DNA from: Microcaldota archaeon
Lineage (GTDB): Archaea; Micrarchaeota; Micrarchaeia; Micrarchaeales; CABMGC01
Length of the DNA: 38,854 nt
Assembly (NCBI GenBank): GCA_021828295.1
Contig: JAKASF010000007.1
Location: forward strand, 1 to 38,854
Direction: 5' to 3'
A model generated the notes under the pieces. The model saw nothing but the letters and a program-made list of their open reading frames with translations, made no database searches and was not told the origin of the DNA. A program made the translations under genes and the position numbers. This document shows positions 10,981 through 13,769 of the stretch, in pieces (positions within the stretch are counted from its first letter, which is position 1; every line of letters begins with the position of its first letter).

Positions 10981-11046
10981 TTCAGTCCCTGATAGACAAG
11001 AGGGTATATGCTCAACTATTAAAAATTAGTTTGCATCAATAGGCTT

Positions 11047-11091
11047 GTGATGAGGTCTCTTCTGATTCGTGATGAAGATCTTGAGTGCTGA
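11047..11091 (+). ncRNA. Candidate archaeal C/D-box guide sRNA
   Basis: C box GTGATGA (11047-11053), D' CTGA (11062-11065), 3-nt spacer TTC, C' GTGATGA (11069-11075), 12-nt guide AGATCTTGAGTG (11076-11087), D box CTGA (11088-11091). TATA-like ctattaaaaatt lies about 25 nt upstream of the C box. Confidence 0.7.
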
Positions 11092-11314
11092 GATGGCAAG
11101 CATACCTAAACGAGCCATAAAGAAGATGATTCAGAACAGCTTCGGCATGCGGATAACAGACGACGCCGCTGGGGCGATGGCGCGCATGCTGGAGAGCAGG
11201 GCGAAGAAGATATCGCGCTTTGCGGTGAGGAACGCGGAGCACGAGAAGAGAAGGAAGGTTATTAGGAAGGACATTGAGGAGTATGTGGTCAGGGTGGGTC
11301 TGGATGAGGATTAG
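11069..11314 (+). CDS. Archaeal histone-fold protein (likely true start ATG 11093)
   Basis: IPKRAIKKMIQNSFGMRITDDAAGAMARMLESRAKKISRFAVRNAEHEKRRKVIRKDIEEYV matches the HMf-type histone fold pattern. Confidence 0.85.
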   Translation: MMKILSAEMASIPKRAIKKMIQNSFGMRITDDAAGAMARMLESRAKKISRFAVRNAEHEKRRKVIRKDIEEYVVRVGLDED

Positions 11315-11864
11315 AGCGTACAGGAGCCCAGACAAGAGGCTGCGCACAGAGACTTTCACCTCGAAGCAGGGCAGGGTCTTCTGCGTCGCGGAGACCACAG
11401 CGTGGGGCAGCCTGGTCAGCACGTTCAAGCCTACGGGCGAGATACTAGACAGGGTGGAGAACGAACGCACAAGGAACGCAGCGACCGCGCTCGATATGTA
11501 CCTCACAGGAATCGGCATGCTGGAGGTTCAGGAGACGCAGTCGTTCGAGCACGTGAAGGCCCAGGCGGCGTGCAGCAAGTGCGGCAACAGGAGCGTTGAG
11601 AGGGAGCAGGACAGCCAGGACACTACGAACATGCGCGAGTTCCAGGTAGTGCCGATCTTCATCTGCACCACCTGCGGGAGCAGGTTCTGCATCGTCGGAG
11701 ATGAGTACATCAGGAACCTGGTCTCAAAGTACAGCCGCTACATAGCTATGGAGAAGGGCCAGACCGGCAGCGATGCCGCTTTTGTCGGCTCGGTCAGGGA
11801 CAACATAATAAGAAACTTTGCCTCTCAGAATATTAACGAATTGGAGATAAGGGCGACCGCATGA
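11304..11864 (+). CDS. Hypothetical zinc-ribbon protein
   Basis: ATG at 11304 overlaps the end of the histone gene; CSKCG...CTTCG pair of CxxC motifs; ATGA overlap with the next gene. Confidence 0.8.
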   Translation: MRIRAYRSPDKRLRTETFTSKQGRVFCVAETTAWGSLVSTFKPTGEILDRVENERTRNAATALDMYLTGIGMLEVQETQSFEHVKAQAACSKCGNRSVEREQDSQDTTNMREFQVVPIFICTTCGSRFCIVGDEYIRNLVSKYSRYIAMEKGQTGSDAAFVGSVRDNIIRNFASQNINELEIRATA

Positions 11865-12278: not shown

Positions 12279-13769
12279 TTGCACACAGGAATAATGCCTA
12301 ACTATTTAAAGGGGGAGACGCAACTTGGAGTGGTTCTTATGAGGAAGGCCGGACAGCCGGCGCAAGCTGTGAAAAGCGAGGTTTCTTTCCCTGAGGCTAT
12401 CGTGCTTGTCAAGAGGAAGGGCGAGGAGACCGAGGATGGCGCATTCTACGACATGCGTGCAGCCGGTGGATCCGAAGCGATCCAAACCGAGAAGCGTGGT
12501 GGACTGCCAGCCACGACGTCCGATGGAAGGAAAGAGGTGGGGAAGACCAACAGGGAAAGGGTAAGGGACGCACTGGAGAGCAAGAAGGCGGACACGACGG
12601 CTGGGCTGAAGGGGCTGCTGCACCTGAGCGAAGTCACGATCATAAAGCACGCCAAGGATCTAGGCTACGCCGTCAGAAGAGGACCAGGAGCAAGGATAGT
12701 CAAGGAAGCAAGCGGCAGCAAACACGAGGCTGCAGAGAGCGAGAGCCGGACATTGGGCGAGCACGGCAGCAGACGAGAAGAGCTGCGAATGCAGGATGTC
12801 GCGAAGATAACCGCTGCAATGAAGGAGAAAGGGCTTGTCACGGCAACGGACATCGCGGAAGAGACCGGAATGAGCTACTGGAGAGTGCTGAAGCTAATGC
12901 ACAAGGAAGGGATGCAGGTCAGGCGAGGACGCTGGCCGGGCCCCAAGAAGGCAGAAGAGAGAGACGCGGCCGAGGAGCGGGAGCTTGATGCCAGCGGGCT
13001 CTGGAAGGAAGATGCTGACAAGATAAGGCTTGCCATAGGGAAGGGACTGAGGAAGGGCACCGACATATCCATGGAGAGCGGGGTGAGTTACAGCGTAGTC
13101 CTGCGCTTTATGAAGAAAACCGGGATGGAGGTCAGGAGGGGCCGCGCCGTGAAAGGCGAAGGCAGAATAACTGAAGAGGAGCCTAGCCGCGATGCCAAGA
13201 TTGCTGAAATGATGAAGGGCGCGCCCAGATGGATGCTTGCGACAATGAAGAGAAAGGAGGAGGGCCAAGATAGCGGGTCGGCGATTGTAGTGGCAAACGA
13301 ACCGAACATGAATAACTTGGATCTTGAGGAAGCGATGAAAAACTATGAAAGCAAGACTGTGCCAGCGGGGATGCTGCAGGAGATAGACTCGCTGCGCCGG
13401 CATCTGGCCGACAAGCACAACGAGGCGCGGGAAAGGGCCGTGGGCAGGCTTGTCTTGGAGCTTATAGAGATAAACGAGAACGGGATACACAGAGACTACC
13501 ACAGAAGTGAGGAGACCGTGCCTGCAGCCTTGTTTGTGCAAAACGGCAGGGGTTTGAAGCCTAACCCCGAGGTCATTGATGAAATAAAAAGAAAGATGAA
13601 CACAGACACAGATTTCTCGATGTCGTACTCAGATCATGCCAGCCATTTCTTCAGGGGCGCGATGAGGGCCCTGCACCAAGCACGAGGGAACCCGCTTGGC
13701 AGGCTTAGCCCAGATACGAGAGCCTTGCTGGAAGCAATCGATGCTAGATTAGAACTCGGAGGGGACTAG
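12279..13769 (+). CDS. Orphan putative DNA-binding protein with three tandem HTH-like repeats (possible start ATG 12339 or nearby)
   Basis: Three internal repeats ending in VRRG (aa ~90-140, 172-224, 244-296); long intact ORF. Confidence 0.8.
   Translation: MHTGIMPNYLKGETQLGVVLMRKAGQPAQAVKSEVSFPEAIVLVKRKGEETEDGAFYDMRAAGGSEAIQTEKRGGLPATTSDGRKEVGKTNRERVRDALESKKADTTAGLKGLLHLSEVTIIKHAKDLGYAVRRGPGARIVKEASGSKHEAAESESRTLGEHGSRREELRMQDVAKITAAMKEKGLVTATDIAEETGMSYWRVLKLMHKEGMQVRRGRWPGPKKAEERDAAEERELDASGLWKEDADKIRLAIGKGLRKGTDISMESGVSYSVVLRFMKKTGMEVRRGRAVKGEGRITEEEPSRDAKIAEMMKGAPRWMLATMKRKEEGQDSGSAIVVANEPNMNNLDLEEAMKNYESKTVPAGMLQEIDSLRRHLADKHNEARERAVGRLVLELIEINENGIHRDYHRSEETVPAALFVQNGRGLKPNPEVIDEIKRKMNTDTDFSMSYSDHASHFFRGAMRALHQARGNPLGRLSPDTRALLEAIDARLELGGD

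Follow-up and report, generated by a model that had tools for sequence, protein, structure and literature searches.

In three Pyrococcus species, a C/D box sRNA is directed at the first letter of the tRNA-Leu(CAA) anticodon (reviewed in PMC7994747); the corresponding methyl was predicted, but not detected, in a tRNA survey of P. furiosus (PMC7668247). Elsewhere, C/D genes can lie at the very start of a protein-coding gene: 5′ ORF overlaps make up 7% of the C/D genes of six model archaea (Tripp et al. 2017, reviewed in PMC7994747), and in a Sulfolobus reporter a 5′ sRNA-ORF overlap lowered downstream transcription (PMC7994747). A third point of reference is the l7ae mRNA, where L7Ae binds a K-turn in its own leader and represses (PMC5539422).

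Here, we describe a C/D element directly in front of an archaeal histone gene in a Micrarchaeota genome, within a window of 38,854 nucleotides (the whole stretch of DNA that was analysed). With the Pyrococcus sRNA, it shares the box architecture and the predicted target, C34 of tRNA-Leu(CAA); the review of that sRNA makes no mention of a histone context, and the two are likened here by description. As in the overlaps compiled by Tripp et al. (2017; via PMC7994747), the sRNA sits directly before or overlaps a start codon. Whereas such overlaps were harmful in the reporter, however, the Micrarchaeota element has kept one partner gene over 45 genera and has a TATA box of its own. The l7ae leader (PMC5539422) is alike in placing K-turn elements in a transcribed leader—here a predicted one—but it consists of a simple K-turn over a Shine-Dalgarno site, while the Micrarchaeota element is a full C/D sRNA that includes a guide, and no Shine-Dalgarno site was seen with it. 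In the literature covered (most subscription papers fell outside it), we found neither a described C/D box sRNA from Micrarchaeota nor an sRNA-histone arrangement with a TATA box at a fixed distance before each parsed C box and, in the majority of loci, no space for a second promoter. The RNA class and the predicted reaction are thus already known; the surprising part is the deep, fixed pairing with a histone gene.

On the plus strand, the element extends from box C to box D at 11047–11091, as assigned from the sequence, its relatives, and sub-threshold Rfam matches. It comprises a C box (GTGATGA, 11047–11053), an 8-nt D′ guide (GGTCTCTT, 11054–11061), a D′ box (CTGA, 11062–11065), a TTC spacer (11066–11068), a C′ box (GTGATGA, 11069–11075), a 12-nt D guide (AGATCTTGAGTG, 11076–11087), and a D box (CTGA, 11088–11091); both D-type boxes were assigned from the sequence and its relatives. 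The order C-D′-C′-D with RUGAUGA and CUGA boxes is that of an archaeal C/D guide sRNA. A single base, G11092, separates the D box from ATG 11093, the most likely start of a 73-amino-acid archaeal histone (11093–11314, plus strand; Pfam CBFD_NFYB_HMF, E=3.6e-8). An earlier note, made from the sequence alone, had placed the C/D element at 11044–11092; its boxes, spacing, and histone ATG were confirmed, and only its start moves, to 11047, 3 nt later in the sequence.

We searched for the histone in 98 genomes and read the sequence flanking it at 90 loci, each from a different genome; the named histone relatives were Micrarchaeota MAGs and one genome labelled Marsarchaeota. In 89 of the 90 loci, representing 45 genera from two families of a single order, the histone gene was immediately preceded by a C/D sRNA; G055 was the sole exception. 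Although the sRNA was located in each locus by its guide core, the count is not circular, as the denominator is histone loci. Five further genomes of the family studied here, f1 (G017, G026, G033, G040, and G053), yielded weak histone matches only and also lacked the guide pattern, a joint absence attributable either to loss or to assembly gaps. Parsing recovered a C box at 86 loci (53 from f1 and 33 from f2), and it reads RTGATGA in every one of them. The D guide is NGATCTTGAGTN in all but two of these loci and its core, GATCTTGAGT, is nearly invariant, although this near-invariance is in part a product of the search, in which one position was restricted to G or T. The D′ guide, the spacer, the distance to the histone start, and the reading frame all drift. 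With 39 different forms among the 53 f1 loci, the D′ guide is probably an orphan, and its absent conservation among relatives is consistent with the suspicion, voiced in the earlier note, that a guide of 8 nt is non-functional. Within genera g31 and g40, a D′ guide near AATGCACTACG is shared (f2 loci such as L109, L117, L125, L127, L128, L130, L131, L135, L140, and L142). Many f2 loci also carry a D′-C′ spacer of the form GC...GC, which could form a stem and hence a K-turn rather than a K-loop.

Two other readings of this conservation can be weighed against these data. As the boxes are short, they might have been matched by chance; however, the 768,693-base assembly contains a single instance of the pattern C-N6-14-D′-N1-20-C′ and the reversed control none, and retention of the element at nearly every histone locus already refutes this reading, to which we assign a negligible probability. 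Rfam points in the same direction as the box pattern: although a scan of the window returned no family at or above its cut-off, the best sub-threshold matches of the element were archaeal C/D box families, topped by snoPyro_CD (RF00095), a Pyrococcus family whose covariance match spans the whole length (11044–11094; 30.2 bits, E=5.5e-5) and stays below the gathering score of 45 bits, for which reason the element was not assigned to that family. Judged by the comparative evidence, the element is more than a chance match and is a genuine C/D box guide sRNA. Alternatively, what is conserved could be an N-terminal histone extension (MKILSAE...) encoded from GTG 11069 or ATG 11072, both of which lie in the C′ box. 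The intervening frame is indeed open in 27 loci, among them the six species of the genus studied here that have a 1-nt gap, and in one locus, L139 (G077), and probably a second, L137 (G059), we found by eye no ATG, GTG, or TTG in the histone frame between the D box and the histone fold. Yet between the C′ box and the histone the frame is shifted in 31 loci and interrupted by a stop in ten (21 were left unclassified by the script), with the same nucleotides kept, and the C and D′ boxes fall outside any such extension, leaving this explanation very improbable. The earlier note would have abandoned the sRNA had the peptide frame been kept and the boxes lost; we saw the opposite, with boxes and D guide kept while spacer, D′ guide, and histone frame vary, the frame being broken in many loci. 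Coding conservation was accordingly rejected as the main cause on the frame data, but an additional start in some genera could still hold: initiation at GTG 11069 or ATG 11072 is possible in the genus studied here, and the histone coding sequence of L139, and probably that of L137, may have its start within the sRNA, in the C′ box or in the guide. An ATGGC-type histone start is retained in most relatives.

As for the target of the D guide, RCTCAAGATC is found at four places in the genome, one being the complement of the guide itself; of the remaining three, only C16:27146 lies in a tRNA, namely tRNA-Leu(CAA). The guide, 5′-AGATCTTGAGTG-3′, is antisense to the anticodon arm of this tRNA and pairs with GACTCAAGATCT over 11 contiguous bp, leaving unpaired only the base that adjoins the D box. 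Archaeal C/D guide sRNAs have a guide of 10–12 nt before the D box that is complementary to rRNA or tRNA, as is the case here, and the fifth base from the D box, G11083, stands opposite C34, as expected from the N+5 rule. The search for a tRNA complement to the D guide had been proposed in the earlier note, whose suggested complement, CACTCAAGATCT, was very nearly right; the actual site is the one given above. On this pairing, the D guide should direct a methyl onto C34 of tRNA-Leu(CAA). The genome encodes fibrillarin and Nop-domain proteins, and genes for each were found in 29 of the 30 genomes searched.

Within the order, the tRNA-Leu(CAA) genes found contain GACTCAAGATCT or GACTCAAGATCC. 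Outside it, the guide changes together with its target: TATCTTGAG accompanies the tRNA precursor CTCAAGATA in G135, G136, and G138, and AATCTTGAG accompanies CTCAAGATT in G142 and G143. One guide position thereby forms three different standard pairs—G-C in the order, U-A and A-U in the outgroups—which amounts to covariation of guide and target. In several genera outside the order, tRNA-Leu(CAA) carries an intron; ARAGORN did not call these intron-bearing genes, and the exon-intron border was read by eye. At loci L239–L243, read against the guides of the five outgroup genomes just named, the match spans the exon-intron border of the unspliced tRNA-Leu(CAA) and not the spliced sequence, which suggests that wobble methylation would precede splicing in these organisms.

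A Watson-Crick pair forms at the target nucleotide in all parsed loci but two. The exceptions, G013 (L021) and G037 (L107), both belong to genus g7 and share the guide GATCTTTAGT, which places a T opposite C34 of an unchanged tRNA-Leu(CAA) and should stop methylation there. Both have nonetheless kept every box and the position in front of the histone gene. Methylation may have been lost in these genomes, the guide may have another target, or the element may act as a leader without guiding. We considered tRNA-Phe as a new target of this guide; the tRNA-Phe of the genome studied here (CTGAAGAGC), the only one read, fits poorly.

Archaeal TATA boxes lie ~26 nt before the start site, as in N. equitans (PMC3491384). 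The TATA-like stretch that the earlier note had seen 5′ of the C box corresponds to CTATTAAAAATT at 11016–11027 (plus strand), and it is borne out by the relatives, as all 86 parsed loci have only A or T at positions –28 to –26 relative to the C box; a second A/T-rich block occupies positions –11 to –6. Given the usual position of a TATA box, the expected transcription start is at the C box or slightly 5′ of it. Upstream, the nearest long gene of the window is an APH-family ORF encoded divergently on the opposite strand, which argues against excision of the sRNA from an upstream mRNA. On the other side, the D box is followed by the start codon within 1–14 nt in the 49 f1 loci with an assigned start, the distance being 4 or 5 nt in 36 of the 53 f1 loci. 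A separate histone promoter in f1 would thus need to sit inside the guide and C′ box, and gaps of 1–5 nt are too short for a Shine-Dalgarno site. Most simply, both genes probably belong to one transcript, first sRNA and then histone. In two f2 loci, L118 and L140, the histone start lies 55 nt past the D box with an AT-rich stretch in between; here, the histone may have its own promoter and the pair may have parted, which makes these loci a ready contrast to the proposed shared transcript.

We consider it highly probable that the sRNA guides 2′-O-methylation of C34 and shares a TATA promoter and a primary transcript with the histone gene. Points that count against this view are the 8-nt D′ guide, the T opposite C34 in G013 and G037, the sub-threshold Rfam scores, the wide gap in L118 and L140, and the loss of downstream transcription in the Sulfolobus reporter (PMC7994747). 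That a guide sRNA is co-transcribed with a histone mRNA had been one proposal of the earlier note, and it is now strongly supported by conservation, by the tRNA target with its covariation, by promoter placement, and by the fibrillarin and Nop-domain genes. In such a scheme, transcription would start from the TATA box at 11016–11027—the only plausible promoter for the histone, too—and the primary transcript would run from the sRNA into the histone mRNA. L7Ae, Nop5, and fibrillarin would assemble on the C/D and C′/D′ motifs and thereby protect the sRNA, while fibrillarin, directed by the D guide, would 2′-O-methylate the wobble C34 of tRNA-Leu(CAA). Trimming or cleavage past the D box would yield the mature sRNA and may leave a histone mRNA with little or no leader to be translated; protection of the sRNA body and trimming of its ends have been proposed for other archaea (PMC7994747, section 9). 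In the genus studied here, one base separates the D box from the ATG. Any 3′ tail on the mature sRNA, however short, would therefore remove that codon, and a given transcript may serve only one purpose.

Two further explanations compete with this shared-transcript guide. The sRNA and the histone gene could be independent neighbours, held together through inherited gene order and expressed from separate transcripts. This would fit the conservation of hisS, a thioredoxin-like gene, and one unannotated downstream family around the pair, but is difficult to reconcile with the short gap in 49 of 49 assigned f1 loci, where a second TATA box is only possible inside the guide, and with a pair that stays intact where the upstream neighbours differ; we regard it as unlikely. 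Slightly less likely still is that the element is chiefly a cis-regulatory K-turn leader, in which L7Ae or the sRNP on the histone mRNA leader lowers or couples translation, with guiding being secondary or absent. In almost every locus, the boxes do fall inside the predicted mRNA leader, and the precedent of l7ae is compatible with an L7Ae-controlled histone leader. A pure leader, however, could do without a D guide, whereas no part of the element is better conserved than the guide core, which also co-varies with tRNA-Leu(CAA). Outside the order, the guide is present without a histone.

Guiding and leader function could also be combined. As a tentative and rather doubtful extension of the shared-transcript guide, the wobble-methylation guide might serve throughout the order as an obligate 5′ leader of the histone, each transcript either maturing to the guide (with release of a leaderless mRNA or, in the genus studied here, loss of the start codon) or staying sRNP-bound. 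If so, histone output would be tied to the supply of C/D RNPs and to tRNA-Leu(CAA) modification.

The guide pattern occurs in 213 of 301 genomes of the class, the order included, and the flanks of 30 outgroup guide loci (up to 1.5 kb) contained no histone ORF. Since the guide persists outside the order without the histone, guiding appears to be the older, ancestral function and the histone link special to the order. In the genome studied here, two other histone-fold matches had no complete C/D element around them. Among 30 compared loci, hisS and the thioredoxin-like gene are often divergently upstream and one unannotated family is downstream in most; the sRNA-histone link is therefore partly plain synteny, yet the pair stays where the upstream neighbours differ. 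For this order of Micrarchaeota, the element provides a specific tRNA-modification guide whose predicted target can be named. Conservation of a start region common to an sRNA and a protein gene is, moreover, unusually deep here, across 45 genera; elsewhere, 5′ overlaps of the two are reported to be rare and costly to the downstream gene.

Some outgroup loci of f3 and f4 (L175, L180, L185, L187–L190, L195, L196, and L198) carry tandem extra copies of guide and D box, GATCTTGAGTTCTGA, after the sRNA at a spacing of ~45–75 nt. Between these copies are often stretches containing CTCAAGA or CTTGAG, some of them complementary to the guide. In the window, the histone gene is followed by an unannotated ORF (11307–11861, plus strand) that has CxxC-type motifs and matches no Pfam family. 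This ORF is a member of the largest neighbour cluster, the downstream family noted above. Further along, a 496-amino-acid ORF (12279–13769, plus strand), likewise without a Pfam match, contains repeats of the form TDI..E.G.SY..VLK.M that, by eye, resemble helix-turn-helix repeats.
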